From Haloferax larsenii JCM 13917 (GTDB lineage: Archaea; Halobacteriota; Halobacteria; Halobacteriales; Haloferacaceae): DNA of 60,976 nucleotides. Below are positions 51,487 to 60,635 of the stretch, piece after piece (within the stretch, counting starts at the first letter, position 1; every line of letters starts with the position of its first letter). Location: positions 1 through 60,976 of the forward strand of contig NZ_AOLI01000006.1 in assembly GCF_000336955.1 (NCBI RefSeq), written 5' to 3'. The translations under genes were made by a program, and so were the position numbers. The notes below the pieces were generated by a model, which worked only from the letters and a program-made list of their open reading frames with translations, was not told the DNA's origin and did no database searches.

Positions 51487-52262
51487 CGGCCATCCACCTC
51501 CTCGGTCGAAACGAGCGCCCCGAACGCAGTCTGGAGGTCAGTTGCTCCCGCCGATTCGACCAACTCCTGTGGCGACCCAGTTGCGACGAAGCGCCCGCCG
51601 TCGAGGACGACGACGCGGTCGGCCGTCCGCTCGACTGGCCCGAGGTTGTGCGACGAGAGCACGACGGCTGTTCCCTCGTCTGCAAGCTCCGCGACGATTT
51701 CGAAGAGCCGTTCGACCATCCCCGGGTCGAGCCCGCTCGCGGGTTCGTCGAGGACGACCACGTCTGGGTCGCCGACGAGTGCTCGGCCGAGTCCGAGGAG
51801 CCGCGTCATCCCACCCGAGAGGGCTTCGACACGGCGGTCCGCAGCCTCGCTGAGGCCGACCCGGTCGAGCGTGGTGCCGATGTCCACACCCTCCTCGACG
51901 AACTGCGTGTAGAACCGGAGCGTGTCGGCCACGGTGAACCCCTCGCGGAATTCGGGGCGCTGCGGGAGGTAGCCGACGCGAGTTCGGTCTCCTGCGCCGA
52001 CCGTGACAGTCCCAGCATTCGGTGCCCGAACCTTCGAGAGGAACTGGAGCAGCGTCGTCTTCCCCGAGCCGTTCGGGCCGACGAGCGCGACAATCTCGCC
52101 CGGTTCGACCGTCAGCGAGAGGTCGTCGAGGACGACCACGTCGCCGAAGGCGTGCGAGAGTCCGGACGCGTCGATAGCGACGGAGGACGCCGCGGACGCA
52201 GACTGGCTCGTCGAGTCTCCTTCCGACACAACTTCGCGGACCATTCCATCTCGGTCAGACAT
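51483..52262 (-). CDS. nosF: NosF-like ABC transporter ATP-binding protein
   Basis: 259 residues with Walker A GPNGSGKTT, signature ALSGGMTRLLGLGRAL, Walker B DVVVLDEPASGLDPG and H-loop LSSHNLGPVE. A 25-residue polar Ser/Glu-rich N-terminus precedes the domain. It overlaps nosD by 8 bases and nosY by 4, so the three are one translational unit. Confidence 0.9.
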   Translation of the reverse strand: MSDRDGMVREVVSEGDSTSQSASAASSVAIDASGLSHAFGDVVVLDDLSLTVEPGEIVALVGPNGSGKTTLLQFLSKVRAPNAGTVTVGAGDRTRVGYLPQRPEFREGFTVADTLRFYTQFVEEGVDIGTTLDRVGLSEAADRRVEALSGGMTRLLGLGRALVGDPDVVVLDEPASGLDPGMVERLFEIVAELADEGTAVVLSSHNLGPVERTADRVVVLDGGRFVATGSPQELVESAGATDLQTAFGALVSTEEVDGR

Positions 52263-54216
52263 TGGGTTTCTCCGTGTGGGTCATCGCTCCGGTGGTGTTC
52301 GCAGTCTCGGTCGCGTTCAGGCTGGCCAGCGTCGCTGACCGCACTGGCTCGGTTCGCGGTGCCGCATCGACGACGCCCGACCCCCGGAGCCCGGCGACTT
52401 CGTCGCGGGCGCTTCGGAGGGCATCCATCACGGGCGACCGCGACAGCACGAGCGCTCCCGGGTGGCGACCGAGTTCGGAGTCTATGGGGCCAGATGGCTG
52501 GAACGCTCGGTCGTACGCACCGTCCCGGTCTTCGTCGGCGAGTGGCAGGTCGCCCCAGTAGTTCCCCTCGCCGTCGGTCGTCCACGTCCGCATGGGACCG
52601 AGCGTCGATTCGACCTGCACGTCGTTGCCGACGATGTCGTTTCTGACGACGACGTTCGTCGGGAAGGTCGAACTGCCGCGAACGCCGATATTGTTGCCGA
52701 CGACGACGTTTCGCGTGTACACCTGTCGGTCGCCGCTTACGTCCATGCCGTACTCGTTGGTGGCGAACACGTTGTCGGCGACGTAGGTGTTGCTTCCGGC
52801 GGGGATGAACCCGAAGTCGGAGTCGCGGATGTCGTTTCCGACCACGAGATTGCCCACGGGTCGCGTCATGATGATGACCCCGATTCGCTCGTCTCGGACG
52901 ACGTTGTCGGCGACGAGCATATCTGAGGTGTACATCTCGTGGACGCCGTAGCGACCGCCCTCCATGTAGTTGTCGCGGACGACGCTCCCGTCGGCGCGGT
53001 GGGTGTAGACGCCGTCTCGGCCGTCGTGGAGCGTCGAGTGCTGGACGACCGACGGTTCGCCGATGAGCACGATACCCATGAAGCCCTCGGAGGGAGTCGC
53101 GGCCCCGCGGATAGTGAGATTGTCGAGGACGCTGTCGGCGCTCTCGCGGACGATGACGCCGCTTGCGGGCGTGTCGATGATGACGTTGCGGAGCGCCGAG
53201 TCGGTGGCTCCGTCGAGGACGACACCGGCGTCGCCGCGGCCGTAGGCGAGTTGGACGCGCGTGTCCCAATCGACCGACTCGTTCGTGGCGCGAACGCGCC
53301 GGGTTCCAACGCTGCCGACACCGGAAATCGAGAGATTCCCGACTGCCGCTTCGTCGGCCCGAACGTGGACCACCGTCCCGTTTCCGTCTCCGACGAGGTG
53401 CGTCGCGTTCCCAGCGCCGAGGAGCGTAATCGACCGATTCACGTCGATGCTGTCGACGGAGTAGGTGCCCGGCGGGACGTAGACTGCGGTTCCCTCGGGC
53501 GCGGATTCGACGGCCGCCTCGATGGTTGGTGCGTCCTCGCCGACGACAGTCGAGACCGGACGGTCGAACAGCGGTTCACGTGCAGCAGTGGTCTGGTCGG
53601 CCCAGTCGTGGTGGGATTCGACGGACGATTCGAAGGCGTCGAGTCGCCCCGAGAGCGAGCTTTCGGACCGCTCGCGGAGCGTTTCCCAGTCGACGACCGT
53701 TCCACCGTATTCGTCGGTGAACGACCGTGCTGCCGTGGGGTCAGAGAAGGGAACGACAATTGGCCCAGATGGGATGCGGGCGTCAGAATCGACGACGAAC
53801 ACCGCATCGGAGGCCTCGACCCAGCCGGGATGGCGGTTGTGTTCGGTCCGAAGATAGTCGTCTTCGTCGAGGACCGGCGAGACGGTGGCGTAGTCGCTGA
53901 CGAACACCGCAAGCGGGTCGCCGAACTGACGAGCGCTCTCTGGTGACGCGACATCCGCGGCGGCGGTTCCGACACCGTAGTAGCCGATGATGTACCGATA
54001 CCGGGAGAAGTGCGCCTGTGCGACCGGCACTTCGAATCCGTCGGTCTTGGCTTGCTGGACGTCGACTGCGGTCCCGCCAGTTTTCACGGTGTCGTCGAAG
54101 GAAACGGGCGAGACGGTGCCCGACACTGGGACGACGAAGGAGACGCTGGCGAGGACGAGCACGAGTGCGGCCACGCCAGCGACCCATCGCGTCGCAGTCG
54201 GGGTTACGAACGCCAT
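52255..54216 (-). CDS. nosD: NosL-NosD fusion: copper-related periplasmic-type beta-helix protein
   Basis: 653 residues. An N-terminal membrane helix or signal (about 10-32, TRWVAGVAALVLVLASVSFVV) leads into a NosL-like domain (about 35-190: HPGWVEASDAVFVVDSDARI, VVPFSDPTAARSFTDEYGG, VVDWETL). A right-handed beta-helix of the NosD/CASH type follows (about 230-570), with repeating NNVVRDE- and NDIRDSDF-like rungs. The fusion of NosL and NosD in one chain is notable. The usual NosL copper ligand Cys is not visible. Exported and surface-located; first gene of nosDFY. Confidence 0.85.
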   Translation of the reverse strand: MAFVTPTATRWVAGVAALVLVLASVSFVVPVSGTVSPVSFDDTVKTGGTAVDVQQAKTDGFEVPVAQAHFSRYRYIIGYYGVGTAAADVASPESARQFGDPLAVFVSDYATVSPVLDEDDYLRTEHNRHPGWVEASDAVFVVDSDARIPSGPIVVPFSDPTAARSFTDEYGGTVVDWETLRERSESSLSGRLDAFESSVESHHDWADQTTAAREPLFDRPVSTVVGEDAPTIEAAVESAPEGTAVYVPPGTYSVDSIDVNRSITLLGAGNATHLVGDGNGTVVHVRADEAAVGNLSISGVGSVGTRRVRATNESVDWDTRVQLAYGRGDAGVVLDGATDSALRNVIIDTPASGVIVRESADSVLDNLTIRGAATPSEGFMGIVLIGEPSVVQHSTLHDGRDGVYTHRADGSVVRDNYMEGGRYGVHEMYTSDMLVADNVVRDERIGVIIMTRPVGNLVVGNDIRDSDFGFIPAGSNTYVADNVFATNEYGMDVSGDRQVYTRNVVVGNNIGVRGSSTFPTNVVVRNDIVGNDVQVESTLGPMRTWTTDGEGNYWGDLPLADEDRDGAYDRAFQPSGPIDSELGRHPGALVLSRSPVMDALRSARDEVAGLRGSGVVDAAPRTEPVRSATLASLNATETANTTGAMTHTEKPNV

Positions 54217-56030: not shown

Positions 56031-56036
56031 CGTCGG

Positions 56037-56681
56037 CTATCGCGTCTCTGCTTGTTCTTGGAGCTGTTCCGCTAGCTCGTCGAGTTCCGCTTTGAGCGAC
56101 CCTATCTTGTCGAGTGTCGTCTCCGGTCCGGCGCTCACGTTCGTCGCGTACAGGCGACCCACGAGACTCTGAAACAGGAGGTCGATTTCTTCTTCCCCAC
56201 CGTTGCCCTGATAGCCGAGTTGATTGATGAGGTGGTGGAGACACGACCCCCACCCGACTGCGTAGTCTTCGTCTTCGAACTCGTCGAGCGCGTCGGGAAG
56301 CGGGTCGAACGTGTCCAGACACGCTAGGCTCATGCGACTCGCGGCGTACCGGAGTCTGAACTGTAGGCGCTGTCGGTCGTCTAACTCCGTGACGTCGACG
56401 TTTGGGTCCACGAGTTCCCATTCGTCGACGAGGCCGTTATCGACGAGGTCGTCCCATCGCGACCGCTCGTCGCGAATTAGCGCCTCCGTGTCGCCGACGA
56501 GATAGAACACGACTTCGCCGTGGCTGACCGATGGGTCTTGTCCGTAGCGGTTGAACACTGGCCACTGCGCGTCGTCTCTCGCTTCGAGTCGCTCGAACGC
56601 AGACGCGACGTACTCCCGAATCAGCCGTTCTTCGGTAGCCACGTCGGCGACTGTGAAGACGACCTTTTTTAACTTTGACAT
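56037..56681 (-). CDS. Standalone lantibiotic-dehydratase-C / thiopeptide-type domain-like protein
   Basis: 214 residues (MSKLKKVVFTVADVATEERL). By eye it follows the C-terminal domain of lantibiotic dehydratases and thiopeptide-type enzymes (Lant_dehydr_C/SpaB_C): a WPVFNRYGQDP block matching the family's W-x-F-x-R-Y-x-D-P region (about 39-49), then a long helical part, then a WGSCLHHLINQLGY motif (about 146-159) matching the S-x-x-H-M-x-x-N-R-L-x-G region of those proteins, and a short coiled C-terminus. It lies 97 bases downstream of lanM on the same strand, so a maturation role for the peptide is likely. Assignment is by eye and moderate. Confidence 0.5.
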   Translation of the reverse strand: MSKLKKVVFTVADVATEERLIREYVASAFERLEARDDAQWPVFNRYGQDPSVSHGEVVFYLVGDTEALIRDERSRWDDLVDNGLVDEWELVDPNVDVTELDDRQRLQFRLRYAASRMSLACLDTFDPLPDALDEFEDEDYAVGWGSCLHHLINQLGYQGNGGEEEIDLLFQSLVGRLYATNVSAGPETTLDKIGSLKAELDELAEQLQEQAETR

Positions 56682-56778
56682 GATTGTGGCTTTCGCAGCA
56701 TCGCCTTGTAATTTGGGGCTTCACTGACATCCGAAACCAGCGTCGAGTTGGTACCCGCCGCGGCAGTTCAGGACGGCG

Positions 56779-59700
56779 TCACTCCATGAGGAGGACACAG
56801 GGGAGGTCGTCCCTGCTTGCGAACCGGAGGAGGCTGTACGCGACACCGCTGCTCCCGTTGAAGAACGTCGGATTCGGGATGTGCTCGCTGTGGCCGGGCA
56901 TGGAGAGTGCGCCTGCGTCGCCCCCTGCGACATAGCGACCGACCAGCGCCCGCGCGTCACTCTCTTCACGGCCGGCCTTGCGGGTCGCTTCGAGGAGGGC
57001 AGTCGCCCGCCCGAGCGTTCCACAACAGAGGTGGTCGTACTCGTTCACGTCGGCGGATGCGGTCGCCGACAGCAACTCGTCGGCTTCGTCGAAGAACGAC
57101 TCGTCACCGAGGGCGCTCCCGATACCGAGGCGTGCGAGTGCACATCCCGCCCGGCCCTCACACCATCGGTCGAGATAGGTCGTCCCTCCGGCGTCAGTCG
57201 GAATCGGGTAGTTCGAGCGTTCTGGGTCGTAGACCGACGACTCGTACGCGAGGGCGTCTCTGGCTGCCGCTTCGTACCGGTTGTCGTCGGTCGCCGCGGC
57301 GAGGCGGGCGAGCGCGTACGCGATTCCACTCTGGCCGTGTGCCATCCCCGGCAGCGGTTTGTCGGAGCCAGTTATCCAGACCTGCTTCCCGTCGACCGAT
57401 TCGCGGTTGTCGAGTAAGTGCTCGCCACAGTCGCGCGCGCGTTCGAGAATTGCGTCGCCACCGAATCGCTCGTAGTACGCGAGGAGTGCGAGGAGGACGC
57501 CGGCAGTGCCACCGACGACGTCGTACGTCTCGTCCGCTTCGAGTTGCGCTGTCGTTACTTCCCGAGCGTGGGCCGCGGCGTGCTCCCTGTACGCCGGTCG
57601 GTCGAGAAGTTCGGCCGCAACCGAGAGCGTGTACACGAGCGACCCGGTCCCGTTGACGCCACCGAACTCGGTCGCCGACTCGCCTTTGTCGGCGGCGACG
57701 GCGTCGAAACATTCGGTGGCGAGGGCTTCGAATCGGTCGTACCCAGTCTGGTCGTACAGCGCGGCCGCGGCGAGTCCGATGCCTCCTCGTCCATCGTACA
57801 GTGTGTTTTCGACCGGCGAGAGGCCGAGTTGTGGTAACTCTGCGCCGATGAACGACATCCACCGGCGTCCGTCAGCCGTGTCGAACGCGGCGTCGAGGAC
57901 GGCGTCGCCGTGGGCCACTGCCCGGGTCAGGAGGTCGTCGTCGCTCGGCGCGTGCGTTGTAGCGTGGTCGGCTCGCTCCGGTATCGAGGAGTCGAGACAG
58001 CGACGGAGAAGCTCGGTTTCTCGCATCCGGTCGTCTTCGCCCATCGAATCGAGTCGCCGAAGACACCGTTCGTAGCCAGCGACATCGACCGAAACACCAG
58101 TCGGTTCGCCGTCGTGGAGAACCGTCGTCTGGTCTGGCTGGGACGTGAATCGCGGGACGTCACGCCGACGGAGGGACTGTCGCTCGTTTTCGTATAGTCC
58201 CCAGAACTGGTCGGTCTGTATCCGCCCGTCGAAGAACGGCACGGCGAGTCGTTCGACTTCGACCGAGAGGCGAGCGCCGTCTCGAAGTGGGTCTCGTGCG
58301 CGGCTCAACCGTAGAATCGAACTGTACGTCGCTGTCGGTCGGTACACCATCCGGTTTTCGACGCCCTCGACTAGCTCGGGCGTGAGGATTTCGTCGCGGA
58401 GTCGGCCGTCCTCGTGGAGGTCACAGATAGTCTCGTGGGCTCGTCGGAACCCGGAGACGATGGTGTCGAGAGAGTCCTCTGGCGGCTGGTCGATGCCGTC
58501 GACGCTGGGGGTGTTCGTCTCTCGATTGACCGTTGGCGACTTCCCTTCCACTGCCATCACGTCCGTGTTGACGGCCTCGATTTTGGGCTTCGAAATCTCG
58601 GGAATCTCCTTGGTGTCGCTGTTTCGACCGAGACCGGCGGCCAAAAACGGTGACGACCCGTCGTCGTCGCTGTCGACGACTTTCCAGGGCAACAGTGCTG
58701 TTCGGAGGACGGAATCCATCGTTGCAGCAGCAATCGTCGTGGTCGGTGACGACGCGGTCGGTTCGATATAGGGGTGGAAGAGCGTCTCCGCATCGATGAT
58801 GGTCGGCTGGTCGCCGCGAACGATGAGGTTCTCGTACTGGCAGTCCGGGAGGTCCAGCACGTATCCAACACAGAGGAGCACGCCGACGCGTTCGTAGTAC
58901 CGCTCGACTGCAGTCGCATCGCTCGGTTCCGCGTACTCGATTGGCGCCATCCACCCGTAGCTGTCGCGTGAGAGGTACGCCGGCGACGTGAACGGTGGTG
59001 TGTCGAGATGGTCGTCGAGCCGTTCGAGGACTGTGTACAGCGCGACACCGGCGTCTATCGGCCGCGGTTTGTAGATAGCCGACCCCGACTCGAAGGAGAC
59101 GCGAACCGGGACCTGCCCGCCTGCGTGGGCGTCGTCTGCGAGCGCCGTGACCTCGGTGACTGCCCCCTCGACGTCGAATCGTGATTCGAGTGCTGACCGG
59201 TCGGCTTCCAGTCGATGGACGAATCGCGTGACGTTCGTCACCCACTGGTCGACGAAGGAAACGACGTATCTGGCGAGGACCGGATATTCGAGACAGAGGT
59301 TCCGGGTTCCGCCGTCGAACATCGCTTCGACGAACTGGTCGTAGTACGTCGTCCCCGGGTCCGAGACGGCCGACGGGTCGGCTGCCGCGAGGTCCGGGTC
59401 GTGGTATTCGACGAAGGACTTGAATTCGACGTAGAGCGCCCGGACAGACACGCGACTGAGACGGAAGACGAGCCACTCGGCGAGTTGCTTCGCAACTGGG
59501 TGTGACCGAACGTCGGCATCGAGTTGCGCCAGTGCGTAGTCTGCGAACCCGACCAAGAGGTGGCTGAATGGAACGTCCTCGGTGGGGGACAGTAGTGTAT
59601 CGTCCCGAGACGGATACGTAGAGACGTACTGGAGAAGCGAGTCGAGTCGGTCGACCCACTCTGGAAGCGGTTCCGTCTCTGGCCACTGTGTCGCCGTGAG

Positions 59701-59919
59701 TTGGTCGCGGACAGCCGATTCGGTGAGGTCGTCGTACGCGAGTCGCTCGCGGAAGGTGTCCTCGTCTGGAAAGAGCGACGCCCACTCGTCGAGAATGTCG
59801 TCTGGGTCGATGACTGGGGCTTCGCCGTGTTCGTTCGGTGGCCCTTCGAGTCGCTCGTGTAACGTTCGCGCCTGCCCTGCGATTGCACGCCGGTCTCGCT
59901 GGGATAGCTCTTGTGGCAT
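56779..59919 (-). CDS. lanM: Class II lanthionine synthetase LanM
   Basis: Bifunctional enzyme that phosphorylates and dehydrates Ser/Thr of a precursor peptide, then couples Cys to form lanthionine rings. 1046 residues from the ATG at 59919; the frame is open to an ATG at 60042 (1087 aa). The dehydratase half shows YKPRPID (Lys284), DCQYEN (Asp359, Asn364, with Gln361 where His is usual) and IIDAETLF (Asp376, Glu378). The LanC-like cyclase shows GMAHGQSG (His861), WCEG (Cys920) and CCG (Cys965, Cys966), a three-Cys zinc site as in ProcM. It is divergent from the 49-residue precursor gene. No protease or exporter is adjacent. Confidence 0.93.
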   Translation of the reverse strand: MPQELSQRDRRAIAGQARTLHERLEGPPNEHGEAPVIDPDDILDEWASLFPDEDTFRERLAYDDLTESAVRDQLTATQWPETEPLPEWVDRLDSLLQYVSTYPSRDDTLLSPTEDVPFSHLLVGFADYALAQLDADVRSHPVAKQLAEWLVFRLSRVSVRALYVEFKSFVEYHDPDLAAADPSAVSDPGTTYYDQFVEAMFDGGTRNLCLEYPVLARYVVSFVDQWVTNVTRFVHRLEADRSALESRFDVEGAVTEVTALADDAHAGGQVPVRVSFESGSAIYKPRPIDAGVALYTVLERLDDHLDTPPFTSPAYLSRDSYGWMAPIEYAEPSDATAVERYYERVGVLLCVGYVLDLPDCQYENLIVRGDQPTIIDAETLFHPYIEPTASSPTTTIAAATMDSVLRTALLPWKVVDSDDDGSSPFLAAGLGRNSDTKEIPEISKPKIEAVNTDVMAVEGKSPTVNRETNTPSVDGIDQPPEDSLDTIVSGFRRAHETICDLHEDGRLRDEILTPELVEGVENRMVYRPTATYSSILRLSRARDPLRDGARLSVEVERLAVPFFDGRIQTDQFWGLYENERQSLRRRDVPRFTSQPDQTTVLHDGEPTGVSVDVAGYERCLRRLDSMGEDDRMRETELLRRCLDSSIPERADHATTHAPSDDDLLTRAVAHGDAVLDAAFDTADGRRWMSFIGAELPQLGLSPVENTLYDGRGGIGLAAAALYDQTGYDRFEALATECFDAVAADKGESATEFGGVNGTGSLVYTLSVAAELLDRPAYREHAAAHAREVTTAQLEADETYDVVGGTAGVLLALLAYYERFGGDAILERARDCGEHLLDNRESVDGKQVWITGSDKPLPGMAHGQSGIAYALARLAAATDDNRYEAAARDALAYESSVYDPERSNYPIPTDAGGTTYLDRWCEGRAGCALARLGIGSALGDESFFDEADELLSATASADVNEYDHLCCGTLGRATALLEATRKAGREESDARALVGRYVAGGDAGALSMPGHSEHIPNPTFFNGSSGVAYSLLRFASRDDLPCVLLME

Positions 59920-60258
59920 CAGGCGGGACACCCCGGCGTCAACGTTGGTCGTCGCTGCGCCCTTCTGTCTGTTGTCGTGGTGGCAAGTGTCATGCTCTGC
60001 GAGTTTTGTTGGTGGTGTTAAATTACTTCTGCAAGGACACATATGCAGTCTGAGATGTGTTCAACGATGGCCTGATTTTACACACTTTGTTCACACCTGG
60101 ACAAAATAATCAATTGTTAGCTACTAATCCGTGATAAGACATCATCGTCTTCTGATTTTGATTGTATCTCACACCGACAGCAACGCGCGCAAAAACATAA
60201 TATAAATTCGTCAATGTTGGCCGAAAAACATATAATATAGGGTGTCAATTGGTCTCAT
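59920..60258. promoter_or_regulatory. AT-rich spacer between lanM and its precursor gene
   Basis: 339 bases, or 216 if lanM starts at 60042. Notably AT-rich against the coding DNA. TATAATATA (60231-60239) lies about 25 bases before the precursor ATG, so that mRNA should be leaderless. A second box, ATAATATAAATT (60197-60208), reads as TTTATATTAT on the minus strand and could drive lanM with a long leader. No other small Cys-rich frame was found here. Confidence 0.5.
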
Positions 60259-60408
60259 ATGTCGATAGCACTCGACATCGAAACTGGTGACAAAGCATCG
60301 TACGACCAGCAGTTCGACGACAACCACACGGTGAACGACCAGCGGGTCAGTACCTGTACGTATGGTGGCGGGATGGACAAGCGAGCCTGTCCCACCTGCG
60401 ACTTCTAA
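60259..60408 (+). CDS. lanA: Candidate lanthipeptide precursor peptide
   Basis: 49 codons (MSIALDIETGDKASYDQQF...). The first 30 residues are acidic and Cys-free, like a leader. The last 19 (RVSTCTYGGGMDKRACPTCDF, residues 31-49) hold Ser31, Thr32, Thr34, Thr46 and Cys33, Cys44, Cys47, enough for up to three lanthionine or methyllanthionine rings. It is divergently transcribed from lanM and has its own promoter (TATAATATA about 25 bases before the ATG, leaderless). Too short to be called by most gene finders. The leader cut site is unclear; no GG/GA double-glycine site precedes the core, only GGG inside it. Confidence 0.8.
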   Translation: MSIALDIETGDKASYDQQFDDNHTVNDQRVSTCTYGGGMDKRACPTCDF

Positions 60409-60635
60409 GTAGGGCGTTTTCTGCGGTCATTTTTTAGCGGCTACCCGAGCCGTCGCGTCGCACTCGAACAGTCACTCGATAGGACGCTCCTAACACCACG
60501 CCGACACGCAGTATTTCGAGTCCTGGACGCTGACGAACGGAATTCGGTCTGTTGCAGAATACGTTCATACTACCCTACCGATTACCGATGCTCGCATAGA
60601 TTTATCATGGAGAATTAGTGTAGTTAACACACACT
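60409..60635 (+). promoter_or_regulatory. Spacer after the precursor gene; terminator and acs promoter
   Basis: 227 bases. T-tracts at 60417-60420 and 60430-60435 directly after the precursor stop look like its terminator. TTTATCA (60601-60607) is a probable TATA box for the acetyl-CoA synthetase gene. The dyad TAGTGT (60616-60621) / ACACTA (60631-60636), around a central GTTAAC, overlaps that gene's start. No further gene seen. Confidence 0.5.

Follow-up and report, generated by a model that had tools for sequence, protein, structure and literature searches.

The closest described relatives of the locus analyzed here are the haloarchaeal class II lanthipeptide systems of Song et al. 2025 (PMC12144867), among them the meda biosynthetic gene cluster (BGC) of Haloferax mediterranei, whose medlans are diamino-dicarboxylic (DADC) products with methyllanthionine (MeLan) rings, as are the products of the present locus. 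The same study describes the lar BGC, also of DADC lanthipeptides, quotes two fragments of LarA, STCTY and CPTCDF, and reports m/z values of 631.2198 for larlan A2 and 652.2251 for larlan A5. When larA is expressed with larM alone, larlan A2 appears only in traces, and its yield is strongly increased by larH, an unannotated gene; the family to which LarH belongs was not recognized, and a regulator, a cofactor, and a chaperone were ranked equally as its possible role (PMC12144867).

A second point of comparison is the LanB glutamate-elimination domain, which forms the C terminus of NisB (PF14028, Lant_dehydr_C; TIGR03891) and has LanB and LanC as its partners, whereas the presumed partner of LarH is a LanM. 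The same fold occurs in the free-standing proteins TbtC/TclL, TbtD/TclM, and TsrL (PDB 7cww). These thiopeptide-pathway proteins are enzymes of LanB/YcaO pathways and act on a RiPP peptide.

The window, by which we mean the whole 60,976-nucleotide stretch of Haloferax larsenii JCM 13917 that was analyzed (contig NZ_AOLI01000006.1), has three genes in the interval from the mcmA stop (56030) to the acs start (60636), coding for a LanM, a 49-codon precursor, and a 214-aa protein, and this interval contains no peptidase gene and no exporter gene. The features are as follows.

Approximately 56031 to 60590, no strand: insertion between mcmA and acs, with no counterpart in 13 other Haloferax genomes; the ends are not base-exact.
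56037 to 56681, minus strand: LarH, 214 aa, predicted LanB elimination-domain-like fold, with a ferredoxin-like half plus helices (hhalign, Foldseek).
56779 to 59919, minus strand: LarM, class II lanthipeptide synthetase LanM (TIGR03897, DUF4135, LANC_like); the open reading frame is open to 60042.
59920 to 60258, no strand: AT-rich intergenic region between the divergent larM and larA, 44% GC against 63% for the window.
60259 to 60408, plus strand: larA, 49-aa precursor; leader, residues 1 to 30; core, residues 31 to 49.
60349 to 60405, plus strand: LarA core peptide STCTYGGGMDKRACPTCDF; the mass of STCTYG plus CPTCDF with three dehydrations equals that of published larlan A2.
60367 to 60387, plus strand: in-ring segment GGMDKRA, cut out in larlan A2 in the sole fitting two-chain partition.

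This cluster is the published lar BGC that makes the two-chain larlan, an identification that follows from the shared fragments together with the matching masses of larlan A2 and A5. Both STCTY and CPTCDF are present in the precursor core, and of the 486 possible ways to divide the core into two chains, computed with three dehydrations, only one fits the published larlan A2 value at a tolerance of 0.001 m/z. This is STCTYG plus CPTCDF with GGMDKRA removed, with a computed m/z of 631.21976; addition of an acetyl group gives 652.2250, as compared with 652.2251 for larlan A5. The same partition reproduces the published residue numbers, with rings Thr2-Cys10, Thr9-Cys3, and Thr4-Cys7. The present cluster agrees with the published one in the core fragments, the product mass, the LanM, the lack of need for a peptidase or exporter in the cluster, and probably the unannotated helper gene, and we found no difference between them. 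The open reading frame at 56037 to 56681 lies downstream of larM on the same strand and is most likely the published larH, as it is the sole small gene beside larM. The lar BGC probably comes from Haloferax larsenii, or else from a strain very close to it; H. larsenii is named as a carrier in an earlier paper (PMC10105419).

The LarM open reading frame (56779 to 60042, minus strand) matches two Pfam domains, DUF4135 for the LanM dehydratase (E = 8e-89) and LANC_like for the cyclase (E = 2e-53), and NCBIfam TIGR03897 covers both domains with E = 3.8e-193 and a score of 644 against a cutoff of 304. Translation probably starts at 59919 (1046 aa) and not at 60042, because the LarM of Halocatena salina begins at the equivalent of MPQELSQRD. 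The zinc-site cysteines C961, C1006, and C1007 are present and are invariant among 23 archaeal LanMs, as are the dehydratase residues D304, H306, K325, R327, R564, and T570. With both domains and an adjacent precursor, LarM is confirmed, as judged from its sequence, to be an intact class II LanM. LarM and Halocatena salina LarM are sister sequences (support 1.0, 59% identity), and a search for viral carriers of LarM found none.

We note that the zinc-site motif of LarM is WCEG, as opposed to WCHG or WCYG in most archaeal LanMs. Its glutamate is residue 962, counted from the 60042 start; the 22 other archaeal LanMs have His, Tyr, or other residues at this position and never Glu. LarM is reported to be active despite this motif. 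Among about 40 archaeal LanM loci (L032 to L061, L090 to L109, L139, and L142), nearly all of those with a recognized motif have the ProcM-like three-cysteine CCG zinc motif, and one, L108, has CHG instead.

Thirteen other Haloferax genomes, including a sister in which the end of mcmA is 95% identical, have acs about 120 to 300 bp after mcmA and no lar genes between the two. A conserved acs promoter-like block starts near 60592. These comparisons support the interpretation of the lar cluster as an acquired island; mobile-element signatures were sought at its ends and none was found. The divergent gap between larM and larA is probably the promoter region for both genes, and its Halocatena salina counterpart is of nearly equal length (334 bp; L062, 5644 to 5977). 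The idea of a further precursor in the space from larM to larH was rejected, as there is no credible open reading frame there. Also near mcmA is a 653-aa protein (52255 to 54216, minus strand) that by eye resembles a NosD-type parallel beta-helix surface protein.

Much of the preliminary description of this DNA is thus borne out, namely a class II LanM with profile matches over both domains, a divergent 49-codon precursor with a Ser/Thr/Cys core that is conserved beside lanM in Halocatena salina, an acquired island that other Haloferax genomes lack, and no leader peptidase or exporter between mcmA and acs. Its suggestion that the layout may be new does not stand, as the larA, larM, and larH BGC and its product were published in 2025 (PMC12144867).

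LarH has no match in Pfam, NCBIfam, or PHROGs, but structural models and profile-profile comparison strongly indicate a LanB-C-like fold. An alignment of 23 LarH family sequences was compared with 15 elimination domains from NisB and plasmid-borne lantibiotic dehydratases, the NisB query being confirmed against PDB 4wd9. With hhalign, LarH residues 13 to 126 align (Prob 76.9, P = 2.1e-5) with the LarH motif FNRYGQDP on the NisB FFLRYTDP region, and the register is unchanged with either of two disjoint subsets of LarH sequences. The profile score is 43.2, whereas the highest score among 400 controls with shuffled columns or blocks is 28.1, and reversed-profile controls score 13.6 and 14.2; column shuffles were used because only three unrelated haloarchaeal families were usable as an hhalign control. 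An hmmsearch of LarH with the LanB-C profile is not significant, and the LarH profile, searched against PDB sequences, returns only noise.

The AlphaFold models, one for LarH (pLDDT 71.5) and one for a 36% identical relative (pLDDT 68.4), have a ferredoxin-like half and a helical half, at a moderate confidence (pLDDT 68 to 72) that is low in the C-terminal helices. Among 350,542 PDB chains searched with Foldseek, NisB ranks first for the LarH model, MadB, NisB, and MibB fill the top eight places for the relative, and the thiopeptide protein TsrL is tenth for both. The matches to lantibiotic dehydratases have E-values of about 1e-3 and TM-scores of 0.42 to 0.50, which suggests remote homology or close fold likeness and not plain LanB-C membership. 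LarH shares with the LanB elimination domain the order of strands and helices and the RYxDP motif region, but it is standalone, shorter, and below all curated cutoffs.

Foldseek also returns IsdG, ABM monooxygenases, and ribosomal protein S6 at similar E-values, and one LarH family member has a weak NCBIfam match to a YciI-like family, as might be expected if LarH were a plain ferredoxin-like (Dabb/ABM/YciI-like) protein and its likeness to LanB-C were common-fold convergence. We consider such convergence quite unlikely, given that LanB chains head the Foldseek results though they are much larger targets, that the profile alignment is collinear past the ferredoxin half and far above the shuffles, and that one distant LarH relative has a weak match to TIGR03891 thiopep_ocin (E = 0.076).

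Five catalytic NisB residues, R784, R786, E823, R826, and H961, do not vary among the 15 LanB-C domains, and H961 is essential in NisB (PMC4341554). R784 and R786 align to LarH Val58 and Tyr60, and the Tyr60 position is never Arg in the LarH family. Within the trusted part of the alignment, nothing in LarH corresponds to the segments that contain E823, R826, and H961. LarH thus differs from TbtC/TclL, TbtD/TclM, and TsrL both in having no retained elimination site and in sitting with a LanM. It appears to be a catalytically dead relative of the LanB glutamate-elimination domain, as the residues are absent from its alignable part. Class II LanMs do not use glutamyl-tRNA, and there would thus be no substrate here for glutamate-elimination chemistry. 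Action as an extra dehydratase is not supported, given the replacement of the two aligned arginines and the lack of counterparts for the remaining catalytic residues, and neither is the preliminary suggestion of an extra step, if this is taken as added dehydration chemistry. The description of that protein as dehydratase-C-like holds at the level of fold, with no curated profile match, and none of the outcomes named beforehand as contradicting that description came about: in the curated-family searches both LanM domains match, the Foldseek searches with the LarH models do not point to an unrelated fold, and the precursor is conserved beside lanM in Halocatena.

Halocatena salina has larA, larM, and larH in an identical layout, with a larM-larH spacing of 4 bp. 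Its precursor is 61% identical to that of the window (E = 4e-12), with leader and core both conserved, and it ends in STCTYLPNGVGMCHTCG; the STCT...CxTC pattern is kept, so that the three rings of larlan are predicted here too, and the organism is predicted from these sequences to make a larlan-type peptide. The linker has no Lys or Arg, and the protease that cuts it thus need not be trypsin-like. The Halocatena salina chromosome also carries an orphan second larA copy (L098:8899-9045) with the core STCTIIPHGAGACITCF, next to two ABC transporter ATPase genes of opposite orientation and with no LanM in the 18-kb stretch. It is plausible that this orphan might be modified in trans by LarM.

LarH relatives are present in 41 of the 392 genomes of the order and LanM in 40, and the two were seen side by side only in the window and in Halocatena salina. 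LarH was found in none of 14 other Haloferax species searched and in none of about 20 other archaeal LanM neighborhoods of 14 to 18 kb. Most LarH relatives are solitary genes, with hydrolases, MATE and MFS transporters, trp genes, and others as neighbors, and no RiPP genes were seen around them; as most are far from RiPP genes, the general role of the family is presumably not lanthipeptide specific. In one genome (G096), two LarH-family genes are in tandem (L066:7136-8705), and no LanM was found in that genome. A search for PF14028 proteins in 194 haloarchaeal genomes gave none, but the controls likewise gave none and absence is unproven.

The solitary relatives and their varied contexts would also be consistent with LarH being a regulator or producer-immunity protein and not a biosynthetic partner, and a regulator is among the options named previously (PMC12144867). 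We regard this as unlikely, since the effect of LarH arose from plasmid expression in a foreign host, LarH has no match to any DNA-binding family, and the 4-bp larM-larH spacing in Halocatena suggests cotranslation.

We propose that LarM would dehydrate three threonines of the LarA core, Thr2, Thr4, and Thr9 in product numbering, and join Cys10, Cys7, and Cys3, respectively, to the dehydrated residues, giving three interlocked methyllanthionine rings, and that host proteases encoded outside the cluster would remove the leader and GGMDKRA to leave the two-chain DADC peptide. LarH would act as a noncatalytic partner of LarM and LarA, perhaps as a peptide-binding chaperone or stabilizer, a reading that draws on the rise in yield reported for larH, on the operon-like closeness of larM and larH in Halocatena, and on the lost catalytic residues; binding to LarM or LarA and a chaperone role are what we infer from these. 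Taken as a whole, the explanation, with the lar BGC, rings formed by LarM, host proteolysis, and LarH as a diverged noncatalytic LanB-C-like partner, is in our view reasonably probable.

The two LL-methyllanthionines of the larlans lack the neighboring dehydro residue by which LL stereochemistry is normally controlled (PMC12144867), and LarH may instead guide cyclization by LarM, toward this unusual stereochemistry or toward the interlocked ring pattern, and not be a general chaperone. Glu962 sets LarM apart from the 22 other archaeal LanMs, and the STCT...CxTC core pattern is common to the second larH-bearing cluster, both in keeping with such a guide; however, Halocatena LarM keeps the ordinary His with LarH beside it, larA and larM alone already yield traces of the same larlan A2 (PMC12144867), and medlans also have LL-MeLan, with no LarH in the other Haloferax species searched (H. 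mediterranei is not confirmed among these). A guiding role therefore seems improbable. Participation of LarH in the in-ring proteolysis that yields DADC peptides is very unlikely: the cluster has no peptidase and larH increases the doubly cut product (PMC12144867), but LarH matches no protease family, trace product forms without larH, and proteases encoded outside the cluster are favored in the published work (PMC12144867). Each of these four alternatives has less support than LarH as a noncatalytic partner.

LarH was left unannotated and its function unexplained in the published study (PMC12144867), and the LanB-C assignment is what the present analysis adds. We give an even chance to the reading that LarH, drawn from a so far undescribed family of LanB-C-like proteins that are solitary in haloarchaea, is the first recognized example of a class II LanM having recruited a dedicated partner with the fold of the LanB elimination domain but not its catalytic residues. 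Halocatena salina provides a second natural example of larA-larM-larH, and LarH points to a family that is present in 41 of 392 haloarchaeal genomes and has no Pfam match. Placement with LanB-C in the apparent absence of catalytic residues would narrow LarH to a noncatalytic partner of LanM, and its role thereby becomes testable.
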